Assembly (NCBI RefSeq): GCF_009765835.1
Contig: NZ_LMUS01000006.1
Coordinates: 1,012,438-1,076,437, forward strand
Direction: 5' to 3'
Origin: Granulicella sp. L56
GTDB taxonomy: Bacteria > Acidobacteriota > Terriglobia > Terriglobales > Acidobacteriaceae
Length of the DNA stretch: 64,000 nucleotides
The notes below the pieces were generated by a model, which made no database searches, was not told the DNA's origin, and saw nothing but the letters and a program-made list of their open reading frames with translations. Positions 47,467 to 63,548 of the stretch are shown in pieces; positions within the stretch are counted from its first letter, which is position 1; every line of letters begins with the position of its first letter. The translations under genes and the position numbers were made by a program.

Positions 47467-47482
47467 ATTTAAATGTTTAAAT
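47467..47482. promoter_or_regulatory. Putative LacI-family operator (perfect copy)
   Basis: ATTTAAA-TG-TTTAAAT, a perfect 7+2+7 inverted repeat 72 bp upstream of the 776-aa secreted protein start. It has the same half-sites and spacing as the site at 61012 in front of the TonB operon. Confidence 0.7.
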
Positions 47483-47553
47483 TAATCAGCCCGCTTGTGA
47501 GCTAACCATCAAAACCTTTTTTGATCAGTAGCGCTTCGGAGAAAGCTAACCAA

Positions 47554-49884
47554 ATGCAATCAAGCATGCGAACTGCAATCGTCCTGTCTTCTCTGGCCCT
47601 TTCGACGCTTCAACTTCGCGCCGGGAATCGGCTCGAAGCGACTGGTGGCGCGATACGATTTGAAGTCGATACAACGAATTCCGCTCAGAATGAGGCTGTC
47701 TCCATCAAGGAGGATGGAGCCTGGGTGCCTGCGCTGTCATCGACCGCATCGCCAACCCGAGTCATATCGGAAGGAACCCCGGATGTCGTTCATTCCTGCA
47801 CAATCGAAGCGGTATCCTCCATCCCTGAAGGATTGGCTCTACAAGAAGACTGTTCCGTTGGCGTCCTGGAAGAGAGGGTGTTTCTTACCTCTGAACCTGA
47901 TGTTCTCACGGTAGAGGCAAGGTTCGCCCCCAAAGCGGGCATAAAGATCCGTTCCGTTGAAGATCGCTACAACTTCGCGCCAGGCAGGCGTGCATCGAGC
48001 TCACCGACCTCTGGCCCGGTCGACTTCGTCTGGAGCCAGAACATTAAGAATGAGGCGGATGACATCGTTCCGAACTGGGCGTTCAAATCTCCCGTAGTCA
48101 TGCTTCAACAAGGAAAGATCTTCGCCGCTCTCATGCCTGAATTGAGTGACAGGCGGAGCGATCCGCTCGCTCTTGACCTCGATGTGACCTCAGAGAAGCT
48201 CCCCTGGCTCTCCTATGGAGCCGTGGCTTCTCAGCCATATGGGCATAGCTACTTCCGGCGTGCCCCCGATGCTGGACCTCGAGTTGTCGCAGGCCTGATT
48301 GAATATCGGTACTCCATCGTCGCGTCTGAGCAGCCCTACAAGCTTGGCTATCGCAGAGTTGTACGTCGCCTCTGGTCCCACGAAGGGCACAAAGAACTTC
48401 TGCAATCGAACGACCTACAGCAGAACGTCACGCGCCCTGAACTGGTGACCTTCGATGACTGGCGAACGGATACGTGGGTGCGCTATGCAAATGCAATGTA
48501 TCGCGGATTCGATTGCGGCAATCAACGCTGCGGCACATTGGTCAGCAATAGAAATCCAGAGGGGGAATGGGACAAACCGGCTCCGGATGCCTGGTTCAAT
48601 GCATGGTTTCAGACCCTGCGGAGTGCATACGGATGGTATCTCTATGGCCAACGCACGAATAATAAAGATATCGAAGGCAAAGCTGAGAGCATTCTCAATC
48701 TTGCGCTAAAAAGTCCGCAGAATCATGGTGCCTTTCCAACCGTCTACATACTGAGCGAGAAGCGTTGGATTCGCGATGATGGATGGGCTGGCTATGCCGA
48801 TAATTACCATACCTTTTGCATGTCGTGGACTGCTTATTGGATGCTGGAATGGGGCAAGAATCTAACTCCAGATCGAGAAAAAGAGATCCTCGCATTTGTA
48901 CGCCCCTATGGCGATTTCCTCGTCAAGCAGCAACTCGCCAGCGGTGTCATTCCTTCCTGGTACGACAAGGACCTTACTCCAAGAAGCGAGTTTCGCGACT
49001 TCAATGCGGAGACGGCCGCATCGGCGCTACTCCTTGCCTCGCTCGGTCAGGCAACGGGAGACCGTACCTATATCAATGCAGCGGAACGGGCAATGAACTT
49101 TATTACAAAAGAAGTGCTGCCCCGAGAGCGCTGGTTCGATTTCGAGACGTTCAAATCCTGCGCTCGTAAGCCATTCGACTTCTACGACGCGTGGACTGCA
49201 CAGTATCCGCAAAATAATCTTGCGACCATTCAGGCAGCGAAGGCCTATCTTGAACTGTATAAGGTGACGAAGAACCGCGAGTATCTCGAACAAGGAACGC
49301 AGGTACTGGACTACCTCTTGCTGACGCAGCAGGTATGGAATAATCCAGCATTCTCGCCTAAGGTGGTTGGCGGATTTACCACGCAAAACACCGACGCGGA
49401 GTGGAGCGACGCCCGTCAGGGTTATGCCGCTGTGTTGCTATGGGATTATTACAAGGCGACAGACCACCAGGAATATCTGGAGCGCGCTGTAGCCGCAGCC
49501 CGTTCTACCTTTGCAGTCGCGCCATGGGAGAATTGGGCACACACCGGCTACCTCGATGAGGAGGGCTCGCTTACAGGATTTCACTGGGGACCTGGAAGCG
49601 CCCTGACCTCCGTGGAGATCATGTCACCCACTTTGGGAGACGCGTTCATCAATTTAGCAGAGAAGGAAGGTGTTGGCTTCAACGCTTGCTCGTTGCGCAA
49701 TGTAACTGTGAACGGCCATTCGATATCCTTTGATCTGGAGACCTTTCCGTCCTCACGCTCGATCAGGGTCCGATTTTCTGGAGTTGACCCGCACGTCAGA
49801 TATCAAATTACCTGGAACGGGAATCACTCGAGCATGGTCGATGGCGAAACCTTAGCTCGGGATGGCTACGTCGTACGTCAATAG
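47554..49884 (+). CDS. Secreted protein with (alpha/alpha)-toroid, candidate glycoside hydrolase or lyase
   Basis: A 776-aa exported protein. After a signal peptide (SSMRTAIVLSSLALSTLQLRA) comes a beta-sandwich-like region (about 25-290), then helical repeats (about 300-690) with aromatic/acidic patterns typical of six-hairpin sugar-active enzymes: YADNYHTFCMSWTAYWMLEW, RDFNAETAASALLLASLGQA, FYDAWTAQYPQNNLATIQAA. A short beta C-terminal domain follows. I cannot assign a CAZy family; the sequence is not a plain GH127, GH88 or PL pattern to my eye. GGAGAAAG is 8 nt before ATG 47554. The gene converges with the DUF2961 gene and shares the LacI operator with the operon, so it probably acts on the same glycan. 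Confidence 0.8.
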   Translation: MQSSMRTAIVLSSLALSTLQLRAGNRLEATGGAIRFEVDTTNSAQNEAVSIKEDGAWVPALSSTASPTRVISEGTPDVVHSCTIEAVSSIPEGLALQEDCSVGVLEERVFLTSEPDVLTVEARFAPKAGIKIRSVEDRYNFAPGRRASSSPTSGPVDFVWSQNIKNEADDIVPNWAFKSPVVMLQQGKIFAALMPELSDRRSDPLALDLDVTSEKLPWLSYGAVASQPYGHSYFRRAPDAGPRVVAGLIEYRYSIVASEQPYKLGYRRVVRRLWSHEGHKELLQSNDLQQNVTRPELVTFDDWRTDTWVRYANAMYRGFDCGNQRCGTLVSNRNPEGEWDKPAPDAWFNAWFQTLRSAYGWYLYGQRTNNKDIEGKAESILNLALKSPQNHGAFPTVYILSEKRWIRDDGWAGYADNYHTFCMSWTAYWMLEWGKNLTPDREKEILAFVRPYGDFLVKQQLASGVIPSWYDKDLTPRSEFRDFNAETAASALLLASLGQATGDRTYINAAERAMNFITKEVLPRERWFDFETFKSCARKPFDFYDAWTAQYPQNNLATIQAAKAYLELYKVTKNREYLEQGTQVLDYLLLTQQVWNNPAFSPKVVGGFTTQNTDAEWSDARQGYAAVLLWDYYKATDHQEYLERAVAAARSTFAVAPWENWAHTGYLDEEGSLTGFHWGPGSALTSVEIMSPTLGDAFINLAEKEGVGFNACSLRNVTVNGHSISFDLETFPSSRSIRVRFSGVDPHVRYQITWNGNHSSMVDGETLARDGYVVRQ

Positions 49885-49956: not shown

Positions 49957-51078
49957 CTAGCGAGAGCCGCTCCCATTACCAGGGCCACCCACCATCTGTA
50001 ATGCCGGGATTCGCTGATCTATAGGAGGCAATGCAGGAAAGGGCGCATGCGGCTCCGCCTGATACCAATAGGCAACCGAGTAGTAATTATCAGAACGATG
50101 GTTGGCATGACCATGCTCAATCGTTGCCTTGATCGATTCACTGAAAGGGATGGGAGCATCAAAATGAAAACGATAGACGCTCGATCTTCCACCCGCCAAT
50201 TCGTCACCTACAACAGGTGCACCATATAGAGAATAGGAGAAGGATTGCCCGCCAAAATCCCACGCGCCCAAAAAATAATCCTCACTGCCAGTGCCACTAA
50301 TTGAAGAAAGCTTTGCTCCATCTATAAAGAACATGTCATCGCCCTCGCCCCACCATCCGTCCTGATTCTGTAGTACGGACATGGTGACGCCGACATACTG
50401 GCCATGGCCCTTTGCGTCGAGCCAGACATAATTATCTTTTCCGTCTAAATTAGTCTTGTTGTTCGTGAGCGGCACATAATTATTCGGCCAATCATTTGTC
50501 CACCCATGATTGGGTTGGGCTTGCCGATACTGCGCGTGAAAATATAGAGTTCCCTCGGAGAGTGGATGTGATTCCGTACGATAGTCGACGTTGTAATAAA
50601 GGCTATCGATCGGCTCCTTCCCTTCATTGGTAACTGTAATCCGTGCGTGATGTCGATACGGCATCGGAAAGTAACTGTTCAAGGCCTTGATACTACCAAC
50701 GGAGAGCATCTCGGATTGCCAGTTGTGGTAAGTGCCCAATCCAAGGCCGAAGAAATCCCCGATGGGGGCTTCCACGCTGGGCGTCGCTTCTCCATCCCAA
50801 TAGATACGCAAGACGATGCGCTTGAGATGGTACGCTTCCCGATCGTTAATCGTGAACCAGATGTGCGAGATCGTCCCCGGCCCATCCGTATCCAGGACAG
50901 TGTAGGTAGCGCCTGGAGCAACGGTACGAAAATCAGCATTCCCGCCAGTGGGATCAGCACTGGAAGTGCGATGCAAGATATAGGTCTGCTGTTGAGTTAT
51001 ATCTGGCTGCCAGTTCTGCGACTGCGCCATCGCCATGGAGCTGGCAGCCAATAGAAAAAGAGCAGCAATTTTCATCAT
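49957..51078 (-). CDS. DUF2961 (GH172) family secreted glycoside hydrolase
   Basis: A 373-aa exported protein with signal peptide MMKIAALFLLAASSMAMAQ and a double jelly-roll DUF2961 domain. The hallmark regions are DTDGPGTISHIWFTIND, IGDFFGLGLGTYHNWQSEM and GTGSEDYFLGAWDFGG, where the family's catalytic Glu is expected. GH172 members have been described as difructose-anhydride synthases/fructofuranosidases and as exo-alpha-D-arabinofuranosidases. In this sugar locus I infer release of D-arabinofuranose or a related pentofuranose in the periplasm. GAGG lies before ATG 51078. Last gene of the operon. Confidence 0.88.
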   Translation of the reverse strand: MMKIAALFLLAASSMAMAQSQNWQPDITQQQTYILHRTSSADPTGGNADFRTVAPGATYTVLDTDGPGTISHIWFTINDREAYHLKRIVLRIYWDGEATPSVEAPIGDFFGLGLGTYHNWQSEMLSVGSIKALNSYFPMPYRHHARITVTNEGKEPIDSLYYNVDYRTESHPLSEGTLYFHAQYRQAQPNHGWTNDWPNNYVPLTNNKTNLDGKDNYVWLDAKGHGQYVGVTMSVLQNQDGWWGEGDDMFFIDGAKLSSISGTGSEDYFLGAWDFGGQSFSYSLYGAPVVGDELAGGRSSVYRFHFDAPIPFSESIKATIEHGHANHRSDNYYSVAYWYQAEPHAPFPALPPIDQRIPALQMVGGPGNGSGSR

Positions 51079-51106
51079 TATTACCTCATCAAATTTGAAA
51101 TGAATT

Positions 51107-52435
51107 TTAGTCAATACCTAAACTGGTCTGCAGATGCTCGAGAGATATATTGCTGGTCTCTGGGTAATAGAACAGGACGAGGAAGAAGTCGAGCACCATC
51201 ATCGCTGCGAAGAATATGAACGGATAAGCGCCGGAAGACACAGCCATCAGAGGAAATACCAGCGAGATGGCGGCATTGGTTACCCAGTGCGACGAACTGC
51301 CAAGGCTCTGGCCTTTCGATCGGACCCGAGTCGGAAATACCTCGCTGATATAGACCCAGACAACGGCACCTTGAGACACCGCGAAGAAGGCGATGTAGAT
51401 CATGAGGAGCCATACAAGCCAGTCGAGGTGTTTATGGGTGAGAAAGACATAAGAGACTGCGGACAGACATAGCGCAAGCCCAGCAGTGCCAAATAGCAAC
51501 AGCTTCTTGCGGCCAATTTTGTCAATCACCGACATGGCAAGCAAGGTGGCGACGAGATTGGCGGCGCCAACAGCTACAGCCTGCAAATCGCCAGATACCT
51601 TGGAAGCTCCGGCCAGAGCAAAAATATCGTTCAAATAATAGAGGATGGCATTGATCCCCGATAGCTGGCAGAACATGCCTACTGTAATGGCAAGAAACAC
51701 CGGGAGCCGATACCGTTTGGAGAATAAGGGATCGGCCGAAACAGATCGCTCCAAATGGATCGAGGCAACGATCTCATCAAGATCCTCCTTCGGGTTTGGG
51801 ATGCCGGTGAGACGAAGCACATTGAGCGCCTCTTCCAGTTTCATCTGCATAGCAAGCCAGCGCGGGCTGCGCGGAATGCCAAACAGTGCAACCAGAAAAA
51901 GAACCGCGGGCAACCCCGAGATCCCCAATTGCCAGCGCCACTCATGCGCCCCCAGATGCATCATGCCAATCAAGAAATTAGAGACATAGGCAAGCAAAAT
52001 TCCGACAACTATATTGACCTGGAAAAATCCGACCAGTCGCCCCCTCCATTCGGTTGGAGCAATCTCGGCGATATACATTGGTCCTAATACAGATGATCCA
52101 CCGATGCCGACGCCTCCAATGAAGCGAAAGAAGATCAATGCCGGCCAACTCCAGGCAAACGCGCATCCCAGTGCGGAGATAATGTAAAAGACAGCCATCG
52201 CGCGAAGGCTATCTCGGCGGCCAAATCGCTGCCCGGGTATGCCTGCTGCCATTGCGCCAATAACCGTACCCACTAGCGCGCTTGATACGGTGACTCCAAG
52301 CAGCGCGGGGGAAAGATGGTAGACCTGCGTTAAAGCATGCGTGGTGCCGGAAATAACCGCTGTATCGAATCCAAACAACAGGCCGCCAAGTGCGCCTACC
52401 ATAGTGCTTTTGATTACATGAGAATTGATCGTCAT
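51107..52435 (-). CDS. MFS sugar porter
   Basis: A 442-aa inner-membrane proton-linked sugar transporter of the XylE/AraE type. The 12 helices carry the family signatures: GGLLFGFDTAVISG in helix 1, GQRFGRRDSLRAMAV, RFIGGVGIGGSSVLGPMYIAE between helices 4 and 5, PRSPRWLAM at the end of helix 6, SGINAILYYLND in helix 7 and VYISEVFPTRVRSKGQS. It should import the monosaccharide released by the hydrolases. Its ATG overlaps the kinase stop by 4 bp. Confidence 0.93.
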   Translation of the reverse strand: MTINSHVIKSTMVGALGGLLFGFDTAVISGTTHALTQVYHLSPALLGVTVSSALVGTVIGAMAAGIPGQRFGRRDSLRAMAVFYIISALGCAFAWSWPALIFFRFIGGVGIGGSSVLGPMYIAEIAPTEWRGRLVGFFQVNIVVGILLAYVSNFLIGMMHLGAHEWRWQLGISGLPAVLFLVALFGIPRSPRWLAMQMKLEEALNVLRLTGIPNPKEDLDEIVASIHLERSVSADPLFSKRYRLPVFLAITVGMFCQLSGINAILYYLNDIFALAGASKVSGDLQAVAVGAANLVATLLAMSVIDKIGRKKLLLFGTAGLALCLSAVSYVFLTHKHLDWLVWLLMIYIAFFAVSQGAVVWVYISEVFPTRVRSKGQSLGSSSHWVTNAAISLVFPLMAVSSGAYPFIFFAAMMVLDFFLVLFYYPETSNISLEHLQTSLGID

Positions 52436-54015
52436 TTAAGCTCCGGTACTTCGCTTGCAATCTTACGCAATGTGGGCAAGACATGCCCAATGCATGCAGC
52501 AGGCGCGTCCTGCGTTCCAAGCGAAAAATAAAGTTCGCGATAAAGAGAATAAAGTTCGTCATATACCGAGGCTTCGTGCTCATCGGGAAGAAATATGTTG
52601 TGAGACGGGCAGAGTGCATCCTGGGCCTCTTCGATTGAGGCATAGTCACCGCTGGCCACAAAAGCAAAGATTGCCGAACCCAAGCTAGTGACGTCTCCAG
52701 AGGGCACAAGAACAGGCTTGTTCAACACATTCGCGTAAATTTGGTTCAGTACATTATTTTTTCGAGGAATACCGCCGCCATTAATAATGCGCTTCACCGG
52801 CGCACCTCCCTCTTCCATTCGTTCCAGGATGATGCGCGTGTGGAACGCAGTTCCCTCAATCGCGGCGAAGAGCTCGTCCTTTGCAGTGCTCATCAAATTC
52901 CACCCAAAAGTGACACCGCCAAGATTTGGGTTTACCAGAACCGTGCGGTCGCCGTTGTCCCACGTCATCCGTAGAAGTCCTGTCTGCCCGGCACGGTAGC
53001 TGTTGAGCCCCTCCATGAGAGTGTGGACATCCATACCTGCCCGACCAGCAATGCTGTCGAAGATGTCGCCCACCGCGGACAAGCCTGCTTCAATACCAAC
53101 GTATCCAGGTAGTACCGAGCCCGGCACAACTCCGCACACCCCTGGCACAAGTGTCTGCTGTTCGCTTACTCCGATGATGCAGGTCGAGGTGCCGATGACA
53201 TTCACCACATCGCCAAGTCGAATGTTAGCGGCAATCGCATCCCAGTGCGCGTCCAGCGCTCCAACCGGAATCGGAATGCCAGCACGTAGGCCAAGCCGCT
53301 CGGCCCATGCACCGCTCAGGTGTCCGGCAATTCGATCTGAAGTTTCATAGCGTCCTTCAAGCTTCTCCCTTATTCCTGAAAAAAGCGGGTCAATAGAGCT
53401 AAGAAATTCTGCTGAGGGCAACCCACCCCATTTGGCATTCCACATCCACTTGTGCCCCATCGCACACACGCTGCGTGGCAAATTGATGACGGAGGTGGAT
53501 CCGCATAGCGTCGCAACCACCATGTCACAGTTTTCAAGAGCAGTGGCGAAGCGTTCGCGCTTTTCAGGATTGTTTCGCAGCCAATGCAACAGCTTGGAGA
53601 ATCCCCACTCCGACGAATAGGTTCCACCGCACCAATCGATGGCTTCAAGTCCCCGCGCGTGGGCGGCAGCCGTAATCTCCTGCGCTTCACGCCATGCCCG
53701 GTGATCGCACCACAGATAGTAATCATCGAGCGGCTGCAGGTCTTCTCCGACAGGAATGACGCTGGATCCTGTAGTGTCGATTGCGAGCGCTTTCACCGTG
53801 TCGCCACTTACATTCCCTGCATCGAGCGCCTTTCGCATCGCACTTTCGAGTGCATTCATCTGCGCCGCATGGCTCTGCGTGGCAAAATTAGGATCATGAG
53901 CTACACGGTTCAGCGGATACTCCGCGACTCCGGATGCCAGTCTTCCCACCTTCTTGTCAAAGAGCGATACGCGAACGCTCAAAGTTCCAAAATCAACACC
54001 CGCAACAATACTCAC
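52432..54015 (-). CDS. FGGY family ribulokinase (AraB-like)
   Basis: A 527-aa cytosolic sugar kinase. GVDFGTLSVRVSLFD at the N-terminus, CAMGHKWMWNAKWGGLPS, VGALDAHWDAIAAN with the catalytic Asp, VIGTSTCIIGV and the adenosine-binding GGGIPRKNNVLNQIYANVLN all match ribulokinases rather than other FGGY kinases. AraB enzymes accept L- and D-ribulose, so it fits either arabinose enantiomer after isomerisation. GTG start with AGGAG 7 nt upstream. No araD or araA is in the window. It lies between the isomerase and porter genes. Confidence 0.9.
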   Translation of the reverse strand: MSIVAGVDFGTLSVRVSLFDKKVGRLASGVAEYPLNRVAHDPNFATQSHAAQMNALESAMRKALDAGNVSGDTVKALAIDTTGSSVIPVGEDLQPLDDYYLWCDHRAWREAQEITAAAHARGLEAIDWCGGTYSSEWGFSKLLHWLRNNPEKRERFATALENCDMVVATLCGSTSVINLPRSVCAMGHKWMWNAKWGGLPSAEFLSSIDPLFSGIREKLEGRYETSDRIAGHLSGAWAERLGLRAGIPIPVGALDAHWDAIAANIRLGDVVNVIGTSTCIIGVSEQQTLVPGVCGVVPGSVLPGYVGIEAGLSAVGDIFDSIAGRAGMDVHTLMEGLNSYRAGQTGLLRMTWDNGDRTVLVNPNLGGVTFGWNLMSTAKDELFAAIEGTAFHTRIILERMEEGGAPVKRIINGGGIPRKNNVLNQIYANVLNKPVLVPSGDVTSLGSAIFAFVASGDYASIEEAQDALCPSHNIFLPDEHEASVYDELYSLYRELYFSLGTQDAPAACIGHVLPTLRKIASEVPELK

Positions 54016-54048: not shown

Positions 54049-55689
54049 TCATTCCTGGCCGAAGCTGACGGCACCGCATAAATGGACCTTCACACCCAGT
54101 TCCTGGAACATGGCAGATTTGACGGCAAGCGCTTCAGAAGCGGCCTTCGCGTCGGGAGCATACGCAATACTGACGTGATTTGCTCTGTGTCTCGCCATAA
54201 ACGAATCGCGTGAAATTCCATCGAACGTCGCACTCACCATGGGCCATTGAATCGTCGTCTGCTGCCAACGGCGCATCGTCTCCTCATCGGGCAATTTGAC
54301 TACCTCACCGAGACCAATATCCACATGCAACGCATTGCCCTCAACAAACACACGGCTCCAGACAATCTTTCCCGGTTTGCCAACGCCCTTCAATGTTCCT
54401 CCGCCCAAAGGGAAATACATTGGAGGCTGCCGCTCGCTGGACGCTCCACGATAGCCATCTACAAAGTGGTTCGCGGGAGCGGCCCCTGAGATTTGTAATA
54501 CCCAAACGAAATTGTCGATACCAGCACCTTGATAGTGCTCGCCCCAACGCAGATCATGGAGCGTAGTCGAAGGATCCAGCTTCAGGGCCGTCCAGCAGCG
54601 ATTCGTCACCAGGGCATCCAACCCAGCGCACTCATCCACTTCATTGAAGTGAGGAAGCGGGGCGCCTGCATATAGCTCCTTATCGGACTGCGCGCCGTGT
54701 ACAGGCGGCCGGTCAGCATTATTGAGCAAGCCTTCCACGAGATCCGATGCAGGAACCATGTCTTTCAAACCCTGCTGATACTGAATACCAATTGCATCGC
54801 AACCAAATTCATCTGCCATACGAACCGCTGCAATGTACATCTTGCACTGTTCATGAATCTGCGCGTCGGTAAGCTCGGTCTTTTCGTCCTTGCCGGTAAC
54901 GAAACGTACCCCCTTCGCATCCAGCCATTGCCTTACACCTTTGGCATCGTCATCTGAAATAGTACGCATCCGCGCCACGAGTGCAGATTGGCTAAGTCGC
55001 TCTTTAAACACTCCTGATGCATTGAGTAATTCGTCATCAATAATTGCGTTGTACATTCCCATGCACCCCTCATCGAAGACACCGAGAATGGCTTTTCGCT
55101 TCTGAAGGGCCTGTGCAAGTTTTCTGCCTCGATTCGCTGCATCGATAGGCAATGCACCGACATCCAGATCGCGCACATGCGAAAGATCGTGTGTTACCTT
55201 TCCCTTTTTAATCCACTCTCTAACGCCGAGTAGGAAGTACTCGTCTGTAAAATCTTCGCTCCAGAGTGAATTGAATTTCACACCTGCCTTGATAAGTGAT
55301 CCGTTCAAATTCAATAGCCCAACGAGACCTGGCCACTGTCCTGACCAGTTCGCAACGGTCAGTATCGAACCTCGATGACTGCGCATACCAGGCAAAACAT
55401 GATGACTATACTGCCATGCCGCTGTTGCAAATACGAGATTGGCATCGGGATCGATGCTGCTAAAAATATCCATCCCCATTCGCTGGCTCGAGATGAAACC
55501 ATGGCCTGCCCGTGCGTCAACCGGGAAAGCTCGCTTCACTACCACCCCTTCATTAGCAAAACATTTTGTCAGCTTGCGTTCTAATTCTTCCTGGGCTGGC
55601 CAACACACTTGGTTTGCCGACAGCCGCAAATCTCCGCTTGTAATAAGAACGACCTCTTTAACTGGCATATCTACCCGTGAAGCTGACAT
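54049..55689 (-). CDS. L-fucose/D-arabinose isomerase-family protein
   Basis: A 546-aa aldose-ketose isomerase-like protein. It has the FucI/AraA three-part layout: an N-terminal Rossmann part (KEVVLITSGDLRLSANQVCW), a middle part (KAILGVFDEGCMGMYNAI, LAVR-like EFGCDAIGIQYQQGL) and a C-terminal barrel ending HRANHVSIAYAPD, where FucI has its metal-binding His. FucI enzymes convert L-fucose to L-fuculose and D-arabinose to D-ribulose. Next to a ribulokinase, with no fuculokinase or fuculose aldolase, D-arabinose (or an AraA-like L-arabinose role) is more likely than L-fucose. ATG 55689 has AAAGGA 7 nt upstream. Confidence 0.82.
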   Translation of the reverse strand: MSASRVDMPVKEVVLITSGDLRLSANQVCWPAQEELERKLTKCFANEGVVVKRAFPVDARAGHGFISSQRMGMDIFSSIDPDANLVFATAAWQYSHHVLPGMRSHRGSILTVANWSGQWPGLVGLLNLNGSLIKAGVKFNSLWSEDFTDEYFLLGVREWIKKGKVTHDLSHVRDLDVGALPIDAANRGRKLAQALQKRKAILGVFDEGCMGMYNAIIDDELLNASGVFKERLSQSALVARMRTISDDDAKGVRQWLDAKGVRFVTGKDEKTELTDAQIHEQCKMYIAAVRMADEFGCDAIGIQYQQGLKDMVPASDLVEGLLNNADRPPVHGAQSDKELYAGAPLPHFNEVDECAGLDALVTNRCWTALKLDPSTTLHDLRWGEHYQGAGIDNFVWVLQISGAAPANHFVDGYRGASSERQPPMYFPLGGGTLKGVGKPGKIVWSRVFVEGNALHVDIGLGEVVKLPDEETMRRWQQTTIQWPMVSATFDGISRDSFMARHRANHVSIAYAPDAKAASEALAVKSAMFQELGVKVHLCGAVSFGQE

Positions 55690-55768
55690 CGGCAAATCCT
55701 TTCATCATTCTGCATTCCGTTTATTGTCAAATCGAGACCATGGAAGACGTCCCATGCCCTTGCGCATG

Positions 55769-57238
55769 TTAGCGGTTATCGTCTATTTGTGTTGCTCCAT
55801 CTTTTAGTTCAGCCGAGTTCTCCGCGATCTGGTTTCTGCCACTAAGATGGTCAAGCTCTTTCTGCGCAATATTTCGCTCCTGAACATCTTGCGAAGTAGT
55901 CTTATAAAGCTCTAGCGCATGATTCATCTTCTCTTTATCTCCATCTTCCCGATACGCTTTTGCAAGCAGGTAATAGGCATTTGAGTTGTCTTTAACGATG
56001 GATACATAATGCGTGAGCACATTGATGGCAGCACGATAATCATTACGCCTCAGATCAAGTTTTCCAAGAAGGCTGTAAGTTTCCAATGGAGGCCTATCCA
56101 TCTGAAGAGCGCTATTCAGTAACTTTCCTGCACCTGCATCGTCTCCCATCATCAGCAAGGCGCGGCCAGCATTCATATGTGCTGATGCCGAGTGGGGTTG
56201 AATCTCTATCTCTGCATTAAATTCTTCCAGCGCCTCTGGTAGCTTTCCAATCCGCACCAAATTTCGTCCAATCGCCTCGTGCACTCCGGGAAGATCCGGT
56301 TTCATTCTCAATACTGTTCGGTATTCCTGAATAGCTCTGTCAGGCTGATGCGCCGCGTCGAAGGCATCCGCTTGTATCTGATGAGCTCGATAGGAGTCCG
56401 GCGCGATTTGCATAACTTTCTCGAAGGCCTCGCGCGATTTCTGCTCTGCATTGTGTGCGCGCCAGTAAAGAGCGTCTTCCTCATCCGTATTGCCTTGTGA
56501 ACTATCAGTCGTGCCCGTTGCCTTGCCACCCAATTCGATCACAAGCGCTCGCAGTTCCGCGATGTCTGGACGACGAGCAAGGGCTCCTTCATAAACATCG
56601 AGCGCCTTCTCGTGATCTCCGCGCAATTGCAATTGCTCTCCCGCAAGTTGCTGCGCACGGCCCCCGTTTGGTGCGACCTGAAGCAACTGAAGAGTCATAT
56701 CTTTCCCGATCTGTAGATAAGACTGGCCAAGGGCATACCAGGAATCGACATCGCCAGGTGCAAACTGGCAAGCTCGTTCAAATTCTTTCGCCGCAGCATC
56801 ATATCGAAATTGTGCAACGTAGGCATATCCCAACCATGTGTGCGCAACTGTATCGGAAGGATTGATATGAACGGCTCTTTCCAGCTCTGACACCGCAGAA
56901 TCAGGATTCGAGAGCCGATACCAAGCCAGTCCAGAGAAGAGGTGCGGAGTAAATAAGTTGGGGCTAAGCATTATCGCCCGACAGAATACTGTAATCGAAC
57001 GCGCAAGGTCATGATCAAAATATAAGGCCACTCCTAAATTGCTCTGAACTTCGGCATTCTGAGGTAACAGTTTTGCCACCCGCTCGTATTCAGCTACCGC
57101 TGTGTGAAAGTCATTCCGTTGTTCTGCCTGTTGTGCTGCGCGAGCATGGATGGCAATCTGTTCGGGGATAATTTGTGCCGAGATAGGCGCAACCATGCCT
57201 GCAAAAATAACTAATTTTGCAAGCATGGTCATGGCCAT
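55769..57238 (-). CDS. TPR-repeat protein, probably periplasmic
   Basis: A 489-aa protein with a signal peptide (LAKLVIFAGMVAPISAQ) and about ten tetratricopeptide repeats across most of the length (for example AEVQSNLGVALYFDHDLARS, DTVAHTWLGYAYVAQFRYDA, SASAHMNAGRALLMMGDDAG). It starts 3 bp after the TonB receptor stop, so it is translated with the receptor. TPR proteins beside acidobacterial TonB receptors may be scaffolds or glycan-binding partners comparable in role to SusD, but this is inference. Confidence 0.85.
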   Translation of the reverse strand: MAMTMLAKLVIFAGMVAPISAQIIPEQIAIHARAAQQAEQRNDFHTAVAEYERVAKLLPQNAEVQSNLGVALYFDHDLARSITVFCRAIMLSPNLFTPHLFSGLAWYRLSNPDSAVSELERAVHINPSDTVAHTWLGYAYVAQFRYDAAAKEFERACQFAPGDVDSWYALGQSYLQIGKDMTLQLLQVAPNGGRAQQLAGEQLQLRGDHEKALDVYEGALARRPDIAELRALVIELGGKATGTTDSSQGNTDEEDALYWRAHNAEQKSREAFEKVMQIAPDSYRAHQIQADAFDAAHQPDRAIQEYRTVLRMKPDLPGVHEAIGRNLVRIGKLPEALEEFNAEIEIQPHSASAHMNAGRALLMMGDDAGAGKLLNSALQMDRPPLETYSLLGKLDLRRNDYRAAINVLTHYVSIVKDNSNAYYLLAKAYREDGDKEKMNHALELYKTTSQDVQERNIAQKELDHLSGRNQIAENSAELKDGATQIDDNR

Positions 57239-57241
57239 CGT

Positions 57242-60200
57242 TTAGAACTCCAGTCTCATGCCGAATTGTATGATTCTCGGGGCATTCTGCTGAGCGGTCA
57301 TCAGTCCGAAGACCGTGTTTGAGTTTTGCAGACTATTGGTACTTAAGTCTGCTGGAGCGCCGTTGATGATGAACGTCTGGGCATTACCGCCAGATGAAAA
57401 TATCGTACGGTTGAGCGCGTTGAAGAAATTAGCCTGGAACAGGAGGTTCGTTCTGCCATAAATAGTCGTTCGTTTTGTAATCGACAAATCTTCATTGATG
57501 TAGGCCGGCATCCGCAAGGACGAGAACAGATTTGGCGCGTTACCAAACTTCCCGGGTGCCGGAATCGCAAATGCCGCTGGATTGATAAGGAACTGGCAGG
57601 GCTGACGTCCTGAGGTCGCCAGGATCGGGCCCGAACACTTCTTACTGTAAGAAGGATTCTTCAGCGGCACTCCTGGAACGACGTCAGGGCGGAAGCTAAA
57701 ACCATCACTGGAATAGTAGGGGTTATTCGCTCCAAACGCATCGTATTCAAGGTGGATTGGGCGACCGCTCTGATAGTGATGGATCGCCGATACAGACCAT
57801 CCTCCCACAGCTCTGCCAACTGCGCCTTTATGGTTGAGGAAGCGCTTGCCCGGTCCAACAGGAAGTTCATAGGTATAGCTGAGCGAAAGAACATGGGGGA
57901 TATCTGAGCTCGTGACAGAACGCTGCGATTGTGGATTGTAGTAGTCCTGATAGAAAGAACCTGCATAGATTGCATTCTCAGCTCCGGACGTGGCACCGTT
58001 GTTGGAATCAACATCACCAATCGTCTTAGAGAACGTATAAGAAAGCAGAAGGGTCAATCCATCGGAAAAGCGCTTTTGCAAACTGGTCTGAAGGCCGTTG
58101 TACGACACGCTGCCGATTGGGTTCAAAGGATTGTCCACATCTCCATATTGCGGAAAAGGCCGCAACGATTGCCCTACCGTTGCCCCCGCACCGAAGATCG
58201 GAATAAAGTTTGAAAAGGGCACTTTAACGCCTGCCGCTATTGCTTTCGGGTCGTTGACAGGCAAAACCAGAAATTGATTAAGTGGCATGCCCGCGGCTGC
58301 GGCAGCATCGCTATACTTCGCCGCAACTGTTGGGTCTACCTGGTTCGGTTTTGACCATACACCGAGATGATAGGTGTGCATGCCCACATAACCGATGCTA
58401 GCAACCATCCCACCTGGCATCTCCTGTTGCACCTGTGTTGACCAATATATTTGAGTTGGCGGAGTGCCGGAGCTCGGACGAATCATCGGCGGATTATCGT
58501 TGCCCACAAGTGCCCCCGGATCAAGGTCCGGACCGTTGCTGATCGACGCCGCCGGATAGGGATTATCCCAGTAGTAGGCAGGCGAGCCTACATAGTCCTG
58601 AGGTCTGTTGACCGTGGCCAGTCCGGCAAAACCCGTATTGTAGAGACCGCCACCGATTCCGTTTTCGGCATTGTCATTGCCGATAGGGCGAGTAATCGCG
58701 AACCCTCCGCGAATCGCAGTCTTGTGCGCCGCGTCTGGAGAGTACGCGAAGCCAACCCGAGGCTGAAATCCGAGATAGTCAATATTGCCGATGCGGGTTT
58801 TTCCATTGCGGCCAGCACCGTGACCGTAATAAGCAAATGCGCCGGGAAGTCCGTCTGCCGCTGGGTTAGCCAATGTCGGATCCATGGTGGAGACTTTTCC
58901 ATTGATGTCTGTCCGAGGAATCTGGAGATCGTAGCGCAAGCCGAGATTCAGTGTCAGGTTCGATGTAGCTTTCCAGTCATCCTGAGCATAGATCCCTCCC
59001 TGCCACCATCGATATGCCGCTTCCACCGGATAATCGAACCGCGAAAAATCCAGCCCCCCAAAGAGGAAGCTTGCAGCCGGTGCCCCCGTCCCGGCAGGAA
59101 TAGAAACTGCCTGGTTCCCATTCACAAATCCTGTTCCATTGAGTCCCGACTCGGTCGGCTCAAAAGTGAAACTGCCACCAGGTAAGCCGCCTTCATCCCT
59201 TCTCAAACGCCGCAACTCTCCACCAATCGTCAGAGTATGCTCACCGCGAACCAGCGTCACGTTGTCACTGACAATGAAGCGATTTTCGGAGTCGGTCGAT
59301 GCACTCGCAGAGCCGATGCTGTTCTGCACTGTTCCAATTCCAATGATCGGAAATGGGCTGTCGCTCGCAAGGGGAGGCAATCCTTGAATGCCTAACGCGG
59401 CTAGACCCGGCCCCGCCTGCAGAGGACCAGTAAAGCCTGTATCCCGGATGAAACCAAAATTGAGGTTATTCACCAGGGTCGGAGAGTGGGTGTAGTTATA
59501 GGTGAACCGTATTTGAGTAGTCGGCGAATTAGTCGTCGACGAGTCGAGCAGATTCAAGCCGCCATTATTGCTGTTGGAATAGCCGCCTACAAAGACACTT
59601 CCAGCGATAGAGTGCTTCTCTGAAATATGTTCGTCTATCTTCACAACTAAGCGGTGCTCGTCAATTTTCGAACTCTGAAGACGGTGAAAATTATTATTGA
59701 TGGCATCGTTGTCCGCCATAGGGAAGCTCTTCAGGATAGTCTGCGAAACTGTGCTCAGCCCAGGCTGTCCGCTCGGAATAATGTTGCCGGGGAACGGGTC
59801 GCGCACCTGATAGGTCTTGTGATCATAGGGACTAACAACGGGGTGGGCCGAGTTGGGATCATAAATCGCTCCCTGATATACCGGGCGCCCGGCAGGATCG
59901 AAGACAGGCTGGCCCGAGGCGGAATCCACTAGCTGCGGCCCCAGCGCCTGTGAGAAGTCTCCTGTACGAAATGCATTTGGGATTGTCGTGAGCGTGCCAT
60001 TGTTGGAGCTGGGGCGATATTTGAAACCCGTGTAGTCGACAAAGAAAAATGTCTTATCGCGACCACTGTAGAGCTTGGGAATCCAGACCGGGCCGCCAAA
60101 CGTTCCACCGAACTCATTTTGCTTAAGAGGCGCCTTCTTCAGACCCAGAGCGTTGGTTACAAACCCAGCGGCATTGAGAGCATCGTTCTGGAGATAATCG

Positions 60201-60976
60201 AACAGGCTTCCATGATAGACATTCGTCCCTGAATTGAACGCAAACGAGACGATGCCGCTGGCCAGTCCGTATTCGGCGCTCTGATTATTATTGATGATTT
60301 TGAACTGACCAATTGCGTCGATGGGTGGGTGATTAGCGCCGATGTCGCCGCCAAGGTTCGTATTCATCACCGGAACGCCGTCGATATACACCTCGTTCGC
60401 GTAGCTATTAGAACCACTGATGTGCAAGCGATAATCCGGCGAGGCCCCAGGTGTCGAACCGCTCACACCCGGCGTCAGCGTAACAAAGTTCAGGGGATTG
60501 CGCATATCTCCGTTCAGGGAGACCGGCAAGTCCTTGATCTCCTGCGGGGTAATAACGGTTCCAATATCGGAGGTCTGCGTCTCTACCGTGGCAGCATTCC
60601 CCGAGACGGTTACCGTCTGTTCGACTTGTCCTGGCTGCAGCGTCACCGTAATTCCAAACGTGCTTCCAACGCCGATCGTGACGTGCTGCTGCACCGAGGT
60701 ATTGAATCCCTTCGCCATCGAGGTCAAGGTGTAGACGCCTGCGGACAGGTTGAGGAAATTGAATTGACCCGAGGAACCGGAGGTCGTGGTCACGATCACG
60801 CCAGTCGCTTCGTTTTTCAGCGTGATTTGAGCATCGGGGATGTTTGCATGCTGCGTGTCCTGAGTCTCCCCCTTGATGGCGCCGCGATCTGCCTGCGCCC
60901 ATGCGTTGCTCGTCAGACTCAGAATGGTCGTCAAAACCATGAAAAAAACAACTGGCAGTACTCTCAACGTCTTCAT
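57242..60976 (-). CDS. TonB-dependent receptor with carboxypeptidase-regulatory domain (Oar-like)
   Basis: A 1244-aa outer-membrane transporter. Signal peptide (KTLRVLPVVFFMVLTTILSLTSNAWAQ in part), then an N-terminal carboxypeptidase-regulatory/CNA-B-like domain (about 32-115, GETQDTQHANIPDAQITLKN), a plug domain (about 135-240, with TVITPQEIKDLPVSLN) and a 22-strand barrel ending in the aromatic RIIQFGMRLEF. This architecture is the common acidobacterial replacement for SusC in glycan uptake. It heads the operon with TPR, isomerase, kinase, porter and DUF2961 genes. AGGAG lies 6-7 nt before the ATG and a LacI-type operator at 61012-61027. Confidence 0.93.
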   Translation of the reverse strand: MKTLRVLPVVFFMVLTTILSLTSNAWAQADRGAIKGETQDTQHANIPDAQITLKNEATGVIVTTTSGSSGQFNFLNLSAGVYTLTSMAKGFNTSVQQHVTIGVGSTFGITVTLQPGQVEQTVTVSGNAATVETQTSDIGTVITPQEIKDLPVSLNGDMRNPLNFVTLTPGVSGSTPGASPDYRLHISGSNSYANEVYIDGVPVMNTNLGGDIGANHPPIDAIGQFKIINNNQSAEYGLASGIVSFAFNSGTNVYHGSLFDYLQNDALNAAGFVTNALGLKKAPLKQNEFGGTFGGPVWIPKLYSGRDKTFFFVDYTGFKYRPSSNNGTLTTIPNAFRTGDFSQALGPQLVDSASGQPVFDPAGRPVYQGAIYDPNSAHPVVSPYDHKTYQVRDPFPGNIIPSGQPGLSTVSQTILKSFPMADNDAINNNFHRLQSSKIDEHRLVVKIDEHISEKHSIAGSVFVGGYSNSNNGGLNLLDSSTTNSPTTQIRFTYNYTHSPTLVNNLNFGFIRDTGFTGPLQAGPGLAALGIQGLPPLASDSPFPIIGIGTVQNSIGSASASTDSENRFIVSDNVTLVRGEHTLTIGGELRRLRRDEGGLPGGSFTFEPTESGLNGTGFVNGNQAVSIPAGTGAPAASFLFGGLDFSRFDYPVEAAYRWWQGGIYAQDDWKATSNLTLNLGLRYDLQIPRTDINGKVSTMDPTLANPAADGLPGAFAYYGHGAGRNGKTRIGNIDYLGFQPRVGFAYSPDAAHKTAIRGGFAITRPIGNDNAENGIGGGLYNTGFAGLATVNRPQDYVGSPAYYWDNPYPAASISNGPDLDPGALVGNDNPPMIRPSSGTPPTQIYWSTQVQQEMPGGMVASIGYVGMHTYHLGVWSKPNQVDPTVAAKYSDAAAAAGMPLNQFLVLPVNDPKAIAAGVKVPFSNFIPIFGAGATVGQSLRPFPQYGDVDNPLNPIGSVSYNGLQTSLQKRFSDGLTLLLSYTFSKTIGDVDSNNGATSGAENAIYAGSFYQDYYNPQSQRSVTSSDIPHVLSLSYTYELPVGPGKRFLNHKGAVGRAVGGWSVSAIHHYQSGRPIHLEYDAFGANNPYYSSDGFSFRPDVVPGVPLKNPSYSKKCSGPILATSGRQPCQFLINPAAFAIPAPGKFGNAPNLFSSLRMPAYINEDLSITKRTTIYGRTNLLFQANFFNALNRTIFSSGGNAQTFIINGAPADLSTNSLQNSNTVFGLMTAQQNAPRIIQFGMRLEF

Positions 60977-61011: not shown

Positions 61012-61027
61012 ATTTAAACCTTTAAAT
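61012..61027. promoter_or_regulatory. Putative LacI-family operator (perfect copy)
   Basis: ATTTAAA-CC-TTTAAAT, a perfect 7+2+7 inverted repeat 36 bp upstream of the TonB receptor start and between it and the LacI regulator gene. The half-sites equal those at 47467. Binding here would block transcription of the whole operon. Confidence 0.75.
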
Positions 61028-61102: not shown

Positions 61103-62146
61103 CTAGCGAATGGAGCTACTTCCACGAAGCGACGTCTGTGGCTTCTGCGTCCGTGTCGACTCGCGAACCACAAGGGTCGGCACAATTCGGACGACAAACG
61201 GCTCGTTCGTCAACTTGCCCTCAACTCGATCCATCAGGATCGTTGCCGCGCGCGCGCCCATCTCATAACCAGGCTGTACCACCGCGGTCAAATGAGGATG
61301 AAAAGAACGGTCCACAGCGAGATCGTCAAAAGTTGCCAGCGAAATATCCTCCGGGCACCGTACTCCCAACTCCTCAAATGCCTTCAATACTCCGACTGTC
61401 ATAACCCCGTTGCATACAAAGATCGCGGTGGGCTTCACGCGCCGCTTCAGTAATTCCTTCCCCAACCGATAGCCTGATTCGTATCGAAAATCTCCTTCGA
61501 GCACGAGGTTTCGATCTACTTCGATGTCCGATTCGCGCAGGGCTTCCTCATAGCCTTTCAGCCGCTCAAGCCCTGTCTGCAACGACAAAGACCCTGTAAT
61601 AATTGCGATCTTCGAATGGCCCCCCTGGATCAGATGCCGTACGCATTCTCGACCGCCGCGTACATTATCCAAAAGAACGGCGTCGGTATGGATGCCAGCG
61701 ACGGTCCGGTCCAGGCATACGACCGAGATGCCTCCCTGCATGATGCTGCGAATGTGACCTGAGTCCTTGCCGGGTGCAGAGGCCAGCAGAATTCCATCGA
61801 CGCGATAAGACCGCAGCGCCGCAATGATCCTCCGTTCGCGGCCGATCTGCTCATCCGTATTCGCCGTCATCAGGAAATAGCCGCGATCGAAAGCAGTATC
61901 TTCTGCTCCGCGAATGATCTCGGGGAAGAAAGGATTCGTGATATCCGGCAGCACGAGTGCGAGCATGCGGGTCTGCTTCACCTTCAGACTTCGCGCAATC
62001 TCGTTCGGCGAATAGTCCAACTCGCGAATGGCCTTCTGGACGCGCTCCTGCAAAGTAGGGCTTACGCGTCTTGTGCCTCTGATTACATTGGATACCGTCG
62101 CGATCGATACTCGGGCATGCTTCGCTACTTCCACTATGGTGGGCAT
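61103..62146 (-). CDS. LacI family transcriptional regulator
   Basis: A 347-aa repressor/activator. The N-terminal HTH is PTIVEVAKHARVSIATVSNV followed by the hinge helix NEIARSLKVKQ; the periplasmic-binding-like effector domain begins LALVLPDITNPFFPEIIRG and ends with DDLAVDRSFHPHLTAVVQPG. The gene lies directly upstream of the TonB operon in the same orientation and probably controls it through the ATTTAAA-NN-TTTAAAT sites. The inducer should be a product of the pathway. Confidence 0.94.
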   Translation of the reverse strand: MPTIVEVAKHARVSIATVSNVIRGTRRVSPTLQERVQKAIRELDYSPNEIARSLKVKQTRMLALVLPDITNPFFPEIIRGAEDTAFDRGYFLMTANTDEQIGRERRIIAALRSYRVDGILLASAPGKDSGHIRSIMQGGISVVCLDRTVAGIHTDAVLLDNVRGGRECVRHLIQGGHSKIAIITGSLSLQTGLERLKGYEEALRESDIEVDRNLVLEGDFRYESGYRLGKELLKRRVKPTAIFVCNGVMTVGVLKAFEELGVRCPEDISLATFDDLAVDRSFHPHLTAVVQPGYEMGARAATILMDRVEGKLTNEPFVVRIVPTLVVRESTRTQKPQTSLRGSSSIR

Positions 62147-62348: not shown

Positions 62349-62364
62349 TTTTAAAGGATTAAAT
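62349..62364. promoter_or_regulatory. Putative LacI-family operator (12/14 match) overlapping the RBS
   Basis: TTTTAAA-GG-ATTAAAT matches the consensus ATTTAAA-NN-TTTAAAT at 12 of 14 half-site positions. The AAAGGA inside it is also the Shine-Dalgarno sequence of the 393-aa protein (ATG 62367), so bound repressor would cover the region just upstream of the start codon. Confidence 0.5.
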
Positions 62365-62366
62365 TA

Positions 62367-63548
62367 ATGGCAAAATTATCCGCAGCCATTGCGGCTCCTT
62401 TCCAACTCATGAAAAATCTCCTTCACTTCCCTCAAATGACATCTGTGCCCCCACTCCGAATCCTGCTGAAGATCATGATCACGGTTGTTACCGCTCTGGC
62501 GCTGTCTCCAACCGCTATCGCCCTGCAGCTTCCCTCGGTGCAAACCCCAGTTACAAATTCACAATGGATTCGCCCTCAGAATCCAGGTGATCCGCTCATC
62601 TGGGGCCGAAAAGACGGCATCGTCTTTGGCCTGCCTTCCACCGGCGGCCTGCTCGGGCCTCGCGGGCTGATCCGTGTCGGCGTCATCTCCGCGACGACAG
62701 GAAAGCCCGAGCTGCTCAATTACATCGCAATTGAACCGGTCGTACTTGGGCCCGGCACTCGATCCAGCCGTATGGCCTTCAGCGAGCTGGAGCCCAGCCG
62801 CATGGATCCTGGCTCCCGCGGCAAACGATTATGGGTTGATCCCGGCGCATCTCCTTCGAGTGATTCATACCGAGGCGAGCTACGCATCTTCCCCAATCAA
62901 GACAGTCCTATCGAACGGCTCTCCGTGCAAATCGATGTGGAGCAGTTCACCGCAAATAATGCGCATGTCTATCTCATCGCATCGATCGACAGCGACCACC
63001 CCAACGAGCTCCGGCTGGCCGTCCATCAATACAGTGACAGCCCAGCGTTGGAGGAGCTGACCGTCACCGCAACCATGGGCAACTACGAACGCCTGCGCCA
63101 GCTATGGCTCAAAGACCGCGTCGTGAATAGCCACGATCTATACGGCACCTATACCGCCGACGCGTTCGTTGAGCGCGAAAATTATCCACTCGACGAGATG
63201 CTGCGAACCTCCGATGGCGATGCGATCGCACTCGGAACCTCTAACGAGCCCGACCCTTCGGAAGTTCCCGTCACCGGCGCCGAGCACTGGCGTTATCGCC
63301 TTCCAAAGCTGACCCAGTACTGGAGAGTCCCCGCACACGACATCGAGCCTGATCTCCGGGTGCGGGTAAACGGCCGTCGCGTCTATTGGGCATCGCACAA
63401 CCCGCTTCCAGGCGGCGCGGCCTTCGAGAACTTCGAGGTTCGGCAGCGATATTTGCCAGGCCAGGTCTTCATCTTCGGCGTGACCAGTAAAACGCCATCG
63501 CAATTCGACTCTCCGCTTCCCCACCTCAATCGTCCGCCGGCTCCGTAG
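62367..63548 (+). CDS. Secreted protein of unknown function in the sugar locus
   Basis: A 393-aa protein. A hydrophobic segment (about 33-52, LLKIMITVVTALALSPTAIA) after a long basic N-terminal stretch suggests export; an internal start at the ATG for MITVVTALALS is also possible. The mature part is mainly beta (QWIRPQNPGDPLIWGRKDGIVFGLPSTGG; LRIFPNQDSPIERLSVQIDVEQF). I recognise no family or catalytic motif. It is upstream of and divergent from the LacI gene and carries an operator-like site at its RBS, so it is probably part of the same regulon, perhaps a glycan-binding or hydrolase protein. Confidence 0.7.
   Translation: MAKLSAAIAAPFQLMKNLLHFPQMTSVPPLRILLKIMITVVTALALSPTAIALQLPSVQTPVTNSQWIRPQNPGDPLIWGRKDGIVFGLPSTGGLLGPRGLIRVGVISATTGKPELLNYIAIEPVVLGPGTRSSRMAFSELEPSRMDPGSRGKRLWVDPGASPSSDSYRGELRIFPNQDSPIERLSVQIDVEQFTANNAHVYLIASIDSDHPNELRLAVHQYSDSPALEELTVTATMGNYERLRQLWLKDRVVNSHDLYGTYTADAFVERENYPLDEMLRTSDGDAIALGTSNEPDPSEVPVTGAEHWRYRLPKLTQYWRVPAHDIEPDLRVRVNGRRVYWASHNPLPGGAAFENFEVRQRYLPGQVFIFGVTSKTPSQFDSPLPHLNRPPAP

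Follow-up and report, generated by a model that had tools for sequence, protein, structure and literature searches.

In the 64,000-nucleotide stretch of Granulicella sp. L56 analysed here (hereafter the window), the gene at 47554-49884 on the forward strand (hereafter the target) probably encodes a still uncharacterised enzyme of D-arabinan breakdown, as predicted from a recurrent gene neighbourhood and one natural gene fusion. D-arabinan is a sugar polymer best known from mycobacterial cell walls, of which it is a main polymer. From its modelled fold and genomic context, the 776-residue product is rather likely to be a catalytic (α/α)6-barrel glycoside hydrolase (GH) of an uncharacterised family, acting on D-arabinofuranan together with a GH172 enzyme; endo or debranching action is our first, tentative guess as to its mode. 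The gene is real, as a preliminary description of the stretch had held: its open reading frame (ORF) comprised 776 codons from the ATG at 47554 to the stop at 49882-49884, was preceded by a Shine-Dalgarno-like GGAG (47538-47541), and had orthologues in which the frame was likewise open (89, 80, 66, 58 and 57% identity). The mechanically called ORF began earlier, at TTG 47521. The gene was present in a single copy in the 4.7 Mb genome (G000). The same description called the protein secreted, and inspection revealed an apparent Sec signal peptide (residues ~1-23, 47554-47622), with hydrophobic residues at ~7-22, no lipobox, and a predicted local distance difference test score (pLDDT) below 50 for residues 1-22 in the structural model; export itself is putative. 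Below, G-numbers designate the genomes and L-numbers the loci examined, and the target family comprises the homologues of the 776-residue protein.

Genes encoding DUF2961 proteins, the GH172 family, were located within 12 kb of a target-family gene, or fused to it, in 14 of the 15 genomes in which the family was found by profile search (7 of 150 relatives, 3 of 298 genomes belonging to G157's order, and 5 of 393 genomes), the exception being G158 (locus L033); these genomes are not independent, as six belong to one genus or family, G157 and G158 were search centres already known, and G146 possessed fragments only. In G046 the two genes were ~11 kb apart. DUF2961 was present in 70 of the 150 relatives overall, comprising all seven target-bearing genomes and 63 of the 143 others (Fisher P = 0.004, kinship ignored), and in 38 of the 298 genomes of G157's order, including all three that bear the target (P = 0.002, kinship again ignored). 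Within the 12-row acidobacterial clade to which the window protein belongs (see below), homologues of the window's isomerase-like protein were found in 10 loci and DUF2961 in nine, counting the available DNA of each locus. The closest association was a natural fusion (L040:9863-13285, Sphingobacteriales bacterium 44-15), an ORF of ~1141 residues whose front part is the target family, followed by DUF2961 at residues 910-1140 (E = 1.7e-46); SusD and GH2 genes were nearby.

Several loci combined the target family with further enzymes of D-arabinan breakdown. L063 possessed, on one strand, DUF2961, LacI, DUF2961, DUF6786, FucI (TIGR01089, 1049 bits), a FucP-like protein, the target, GH116 and GH183 (E = 1e-92), while L074 possessed, also on one strand, GH183, an unknown protein, GH116, two DUF2961 genes, the target, DUF6786, a FucP-like MFS protein and a kinase; the assignment of both to Bacteroidota rests on the search centres only. 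In L034, an Anaerolineae record, two target copies flanked a GH116 gene, and a GH78-type protein and ABC-transporter parts were encoded close by; L076 contained two target-family genes, DUF6786, and pieces of GH116 and DUF2961; the N-terminal part of a GH116 lay near the target in L022; and in G045 GH116 and the target were 33 kb apart. In L053 (G146), DUF2961 and GH116 stood beside target-family fragments (residues 400-470 and 498-552). These fragments, in two frames (L053:6073-6499) and next to an ExoMA2-type GH116, are apparently remnants. When the co-located GH116 proteins of L034, L053, L054, L063 and L074 were compared with the PDB, the nearest structure was in all five cases ExoMA2 (8ic6/8ic7), with scores to 8ic6 of 444, 477, 396, 371 and 368 bits against 48, 97, 65, 40 and 45 bits for the next GH116, respectively. 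The residues of the L034 protein aligned with His446 and Arg483 of ExoMA2, which the available passages of PMC10509167 tie to recognition of D-arabinofuranose (D-Araf), were conserved, given an inferred chain-numbering offset of four. The recurrent GH172, ExoMA2-type GH116 and GH183 neighbours, the GH172 fusion and the shared operator described below support the D-arabinan context that had been proposed for the gene.

Some other features of these neighbourhoods were recorded. DUF6786 recurred beside the target family in D-arabinan-type loci (L063:3777-5033, L073:7637-8881, L074:7629-8873, L076:14062-15327), and no mention of it was found in the open-licence PubMed Central literature searched. 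A diverged DUF2961 protein of 761 residues (L020:10005-12287; hidden Markov model E = 6e-32), about twice as long as the GH172 of the window, was encoded beside a target homologue. In G026, a GH127 gene followed the target orthologue (L012:6362-8401), which suggests varied arabinofuranoside loci.

A regulatory link pointed to the same operon. A palindromic operator was located at 47467-47482, 71 bp before the ATG of the target, and a second copy at 61012-61027, 35 bp ahead of the first gene of the operon, which encodes the TonB-receptor-like protein. When the 16-base palindrome was searched across whole genomes, allowing at most one mismatch, two sites each were found in G000, G001 and G045 and none in G026, compared with 0, 1, 0 and 0 sites for the control, the palindrome read backwards. 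In the three genomes with two sites, ~13.5 kb separated the copy beside the target from the copy ahead of the TonB-receptor-like gene (~36 and 14 bp upstream of that gene in G001 and G045). The claim that the gene carries the regulon operator therefore holds, and the motif is selective: each of two relatives likewise has two sites, at the corresponding positions. A looser form gave seven overlapping matches in the window against 0.49 expected. A weaker operator-like site was located at 62349-62364, upstream of the ORF at 62367. As only three of the 12 acidobacterial loci carried an operator within 300 bp of the target gene, its conservation is restricted to the closest relatives. The LacI-family protein encoded at 61103-62146 on the reverse strand (PF00356, PF13377) is likely the regulator that binds the operator.

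The structure of the protein was predicted with AlphaFold2 from 35 sequences (mean pLDDT 89.1; predicted template modelling score 0.91); an earlier model, from six acidobacterial sequences of 57-100% identity, was too poor for use (pLDDT 54.5). With strands at residues 26-259, barrel helices at ~300-694 and strands again at 697-774, the model comprised an N-terminal β-sandwich (residues ~26-260; 47629-48333), an (α/α)6 barrel (residues ~284-697; 48403-49644) and a C-terminal β domain (residues ~697-776; 49642-49881). It thus agrees with the β-sandwich followed by an (α/α)-toroid that had been read from the sequence, to which it adds the C-terminal domain. The conserved aromatic and acidic patches noted earlier were also recovered, as invariant Asp, Glu, His, Cys and Trp residues in loops of one barrel face. 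Candidate active-site residues were located in barrel loop 4 (D529, E531, C536, K539, D545; 49138-49188), loop 5 (G606, G607, N612, D614, E616, W617, D619, R621; 49369-49416) and loop 6 (E659, N660, H663; 49528-49542). H231 in the N-terminal β-sandwich was identical in all 33 members of alignment A4, as were W351, D529, E531, C536, W595, N612, D614, W617, D619, R621, R644, R650, E659, N660, H663 and W678, and E616 was kept in 32. Conservation in no fewer than 31 of the first 32 rows of alignment A2 was seen at 44 barrel positions, and 31 of these were situated in the six loops on one face (P = 2.8e-4 in a hypergeometric test, with loop borders chosen from the secondary structure of the model); in the model, such one-face clustering is what the active site of an (α/α)6 fold looks like.

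Fold comparison with Foldseek and VIA likewise indicated a six-hairpin-type fold. The top Foldseek matches were cellobiose phosphorylase and related GH94 enzymes, PL27, GH116 (5o0s, 7w2v, TxGH116) and sugar epimerases. The 50 best VIA matches were mostly limited to the barrel (residues 286-697); among them, only the PL27 structure 5no8 covered the N-terminal domain as well (497 aligned residues at a root-mean-square deviation (rmsd) of 8.0, Z = 24.1), and the absence or low rank of a family in this list proves nothing.

Sequence searches were consistent with the claim that the protein fits no known family. Pfam returned edge matches only, which spanned one or two helix pairs: C5-epim_C was above its cut-off (24.5 against 23.3 bits) over 36 of 188 positions only and matched weakly in 11 of 35 family members; GH88 reached 22.0 bits against a gathering score of 26.6 (28.2 bits over ~100 residues in the L074 relative); and GH76 reached 17.5 bits against 25.9, below the profile's threshold, with weak matches in seven of 35 members. 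Both NCBIfam matches were far under cut-off, no match was found among PHROGs, and the single sequence gave one chance antibody match in the PDB (E = 0.22). A 35-member profile searched against the PDB retrieved pectate lyase 1gxo first (E = 5.8e-4, ~70 positions), followed by GH76 mannanases and then 5no8 (E = 0.05). Individual families were also considered. C5-epimerase and GH88 identities had only the short edge matches in their favour. Membership of GH116 found no support in Pfam (no match to PF04685 or PF12215) or among PDB sequence and profile matches, and a single GH116 sequence, which makes a weak template, gave a probability of 0.4 in hhalign; the protein does have the GH116-like architecture of β-sandwich and (α/α)6 barrel, which is common to many families. 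GH127 matched four of 35 members at E ≤ 0.01 (best 2.8e-6), the window protein not among them; hhalign against one GH127 sequence gave a probability of 1.9, and C536 was the single invariant Cys in 33 members. The profiles of GH183 (DUF4185, PF13810) and GH172 (DUF2961, PF11175) were not among the Pfam matches of the target. Judging from these searches, the target belongs to a family that could not be matched to a characterised one within Pfam, NCBIfam, PHROGs and PDB sequences, which is the sense in which "new family" is used here; no characterised family, whatever its substrate, was matched confidently over the full length in any of these databases.

The distribution of the target gene was patchy, as is usual for accessory catabolic genes: among 150 relatives, the window's own genome included, eight matched the single sequence at E ≤ 0.001 (G018 over residues 4-158 only, at 31% identity, and G146 in two fragments only) and seven matched the profile at E ≤ 1e-10. 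A contig scan returned 31 loci, some from genomes already found, in Acidobacteriota, Bacteroidota/Ignavibacteriota, KSB1, Planctomycetota, Chloroflexota and Actinomycetota records. In a tree of 32 members, the 12-row acidobacterial clade that contains the window protein was supported, whereas midpoint rooting and long-branch warnings leave the deep branches unsure.

In the window, the target is followed by a reverse-strand operon with a set of genes expected of a D-arabinan locus. The GH172 protein, its presumed partner (49957-51114; PF11175, E = 1.5e-82), had 7v1v, 4kq7, 8ah3 and 8ic8 as PDB homologues. Next to it were encoded an MFS sugar porter (51107-52435; PF00083, E = 1.2e-106; TIGR00879), an FGGY ribulokinase-type kinase (52432-54015; NF003154, 532 bits, cut-off 428), a divergent L-fucose/D-arabinose isomerase-like protein (54049-55695; sub-threshold Fucose_iso_C and N1 matches), a TPR protein identified by Pfam (55769-57238) and, at the operon head, a TonB-dependent receptor-like outer-membrane protein (57242-60976) recognised by inspection and with homologues in related loci. 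GH172, isomerase-like protein, kinase, porter and receptor thus occurred together; GH116 was absent from G000 by profile search, and the combination of GH116 and GH183 did not occur at this locus. From pathway knowledge, an isomerase and a ribulokinase without an epimerase fit the conversion of D-arabinose to D-ribulose-5-phosphate.

Two other genes of the operon region were recorded. Homologues of the isomerase-like protein were found in L010, L011, L013-L020 and L022, with 59-91% identity among acidobacterial loci; PDB searches with its profile as well as its sequence gave nothing at E ≤ 0.01, and it may represent a separate pentose isomerase family. L062 and L063 possessed a true FucI, unlike the window. 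A 393-residue protein (62367-63548, forward strand; cluster C24), the gene with the weak operator-like site ahead of it, was matched by neither Pfam nor NCBIfam at E ≤ 1 and had homologues in L016 (8912-9994, adjoining the target homologue) and L017 (13695-14867); it may be another partner of the regulon.

Based on these elements, the following scheme can be proposed. The LacI-type regulator would repress the target gene and the D-arabinose operon through the two operator copies. In the presence of D-arabinan fragments, the TonB-dependent receptor would take up oligosaccharides, the target enzyme would open or debranch the chains outside the inner membrane, and GH172 would peel off α-D-arabinofuranose from the opened chains. 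The MFS porter would then carry D-arabinose into the cytosol, where isomerase and kinase would convert it to D-ribulose-5-phosphate. Catalysis, substrate linkage, mode of action, export and the pairing of regulator and operator are all predicted here. In the Microbacterium system, according to the passages of PMC10509167 available, the GH172 enzyme ExoMA1 alone was inactive on Mycobacterium smegmatis lipoarabinomannan (LAM), and together with GH183 and GH116 it degraded mycobacterial D-arabinan to monomers. G001 and G046 possess GH172 and the target, and neither GH116 nor GH183 was detected in them, which, together with the inactivity of ExoMA1 alone, fits a chain-opening or cap-removing role for the target: if the operons of G001 and G046 serve D-arabinan and their GH172 acts like ExoMA1, opening or uncapping the polymer must fall to the target. 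We consider it possible, though slightly on the doubtful side, that the target founds a new polyspecific GH family whose Acidobacteriota and Bacteroidota branches form a fourth standard component of D-arabinan breakdown that has been overlooked so far, in addition to GH172, GH116 and GH183, and can open native D-arabinan with GH172 alone where GH116 and GH183 are lacking.

Several observations weigh against a D-arabinan role for the target. In the part of PMC10115798 available, all GH172 enzymes tested freed arabinose from M. smegmatis LAM unaided, including those of Dysgonomonas gadei; degradation by GH172 only is therefore possible, which weakens the argument from G001 and G046 and makes endo or debranching action less probable. 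The D-arabinose reading of the window operon is itself indirect, since the isomerase-like protein matched fucose isomerase only under Pfam cut-offs and the GH172 protein scored best against an α-fructofuranosidase (7v1v). G000 also possessed one GH183 protein ~1.1 Mb from the operon; the endo activity that the preliminary description regarded as missing from the operon, and for which it suggested an endo-acting or side-chain-removing role of the target, is thus not certainly missing from the cell. Where GH172, GH116 and GH183 coexist (L063, L074), the target may do something else. Among the 31 loci of the contig scan, 25 showed no DUF2961 and 29 no GH116 in the available DNA (several were short contigs), and L033 (G158) and L021 had no DUF2961, GH116 or isomerase neighbour. 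The neighbours of the target in L024 encoded heparinase-like, Gfo/Idh, aminotransferase, amidohydrolase, PfkB, GH38 and sub-threshold GH15/GH78-like proteins, and the majority of these clusters recurred in L026, L032 and L043; in L019 (Granulicella rosea), a GH31 gene immediately preceded the target, with a GH28-like gene next to it; L011 had a GH101-like neighbour and L012 a GH127. Given clusters of the L024 type, with heparinase-like, Gfo/Idh, GH38 and PfkB proteins, some family members probably act on other glycans, and the family looks polyspecific and, as a whole, not tied to D-arabinan.

The four Ignavibacteriota/Bacteroidetes loci (L024, L026, L032, L043) shared a conserved, catabolic-looking cluster, including BNR-repeat proteins (C1) and ~600-residue proteins (C3), the latter without a Pfam match in L024, the locus on which Pfam was run. 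A biosynthetic role for these clusters was considered and rejected, as Pfam gave catabolic-looking genes in L024.

For the mode of action, endo or debranching activity comes ahead of two alternatives, each of which appears unlikely. In the first, the target would remove a decoration or cap other than D-arabinofuranose, for example one containing hexose, hexosamine or uronic acid, as a glycosidase or a lyase. The protein had beforehand been described as a possible glycoside hydrolase or lyase; a lyase is unlikely on D-arabinan itself since lyases need a uronic acid and this polymer contains none, which equally counts against the lyase form of this alternative. In its favour, the target coexisted with a complete GH172/GH116/GH183 set in L063 and L074, where it should add another linkage, branch or decoration, and the activity of GH172 alone on LAM (PMC10115798, in part) leaves less need for another D-Araf hydrolase. 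The PL27 structure 5no8, the one listed VIA match to span the N-terminal domain, has the same domain layout as far as described in the available passages of PMC8377490, but the sequence profile reached it only at E = 0.05, and in G001 and G046 no other opener of D-arabinan was detected.

In the second, similarly unlikely alternative, the target would be an exo-β-D-arabinofuranosidase, or remove another terminal D-Araf, in place of GH116. The shared layout of β-sandwich and (α/α)6 barrel, the presence of TxGH116 among the Foldseek matches and the lack of a GH116 match in three target-bearing genomes (G000, G001, G046) are in line with such a replacement. Against it count the joint occurrence of the target and ExoMA2-type GH116 in L034, L063, L074 and, with fragments of the target, L053, their presence 33 kb apart in G045 and the GH116 N-terminal part in L022, as well as the lack of a sequence relation to GH116 in hhalign against a single sequence. 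An anti-correlation between GH183 and the target was also looked for and not found: GH183 was present in two of the six target genomes searched and in four of 12 further genomes; among the 150 relatives it was found in 18 at E ≤ 0.001, with 14 of these exceeding the family cut-off. It was if anything commoner with the target (two of seven target-bearing genomes, G146 included, against 16 of 143 others; P = 0.20).

Compatible with any of these modes, and rather improbable, is that the family already has a place in CAZy, for example as GH182 or a family created after 2023. The searches covered Pfam, NCBIfam, PHROGs and the PDB, libraries that need not show every CAZy family; the D-arabinan locus of D. 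gadei encodes several induced proteins that lacked annotation; and GH182, founded on an exo-galactofuranosidase and represented by BACFIN_04787, is named in PMC10115798, in whose available passages neither its fold nor its sequence appears. Against this, no Pfam, NCBIfam or PDB family matched over the length of the target, and no earlier description of such a family was present among the open-licence PubMed Central matches listed. That the target does not act on a polymer catalytically, being a binding protein or an AGE-like barrel sugar epimerase or isomerase, is highly improbable: its barrel resembles AGE and cellobiose 2-epimerases (VIA Z ~23) and matches C5-epim_C at an edge of 36 residues, but the listed VIA matches all share the barrel, none being decisive, and the apparent signal peptide, the extra β domains as in polysaccharide enzymes and the many invariant carboxylates on one barrel face argue otherwise.

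If the target is indeed a glycoside hydrolase of D-arabinan breakdown, it would be a new means of taking arabinogalactan and lipoarabinomannan apart for analysis, make it easier to annotate those proteins of known D-arabinan loci that still lack an annotation, and point to D-arabinofuranose-containing glycans as a food source of soil Acidobacteriota. Among known systems, GH172 exo-α-D-arabinofuranosidases and GH183 endo-D-arabinanases occur in the same loci and apparently act on the same polymer; being unrelated to the target by Pfam, they are partners and not homologues. The GH172 family was reportedly assigned in 2021. The GH183 family and the D-arabinan activity of GH116 were assigned in 2023, according to the passages of PMC10115798 and PMC10509167 available. 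The GH116 enzyme ExoMA2 (8ic6/8ic7) has, like the target, an N-terminal β-sandwich and an (α/α)6 barrel and belongs to the same kind of gene clusters, but it shows no detectable sequence relation to the target and coexists with it in several loci. GH127 β-L-arabinofuranosidases are barrel enzymes acting on arabinofuranosides, with a zinc site of three Cys and one Glu and a nucleophilic Cys; one is encoded beside a target orthologue (L012) and four of 35 members match their profile weakly, whereas hhalign against one GH127 sequence gave a low probability and the target family has a single invariant Cys. GH76, GH88 and AGE-type proteins share the barrel fold (VIA Z 22-27 over ~299-347 residues) and give weak Pfam edge matches, which cover one or two helix pairs and never the full length. 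The PL27 rhamnose-glucuronate lyase BACCELL_00875 (5no8) has the same domain order and, alone among the VIA matches listed, covers residues 31-693 of the target; it differs in its high rmsd and weak profile score and in acting on the uronic-acid glycans of gum arabic.

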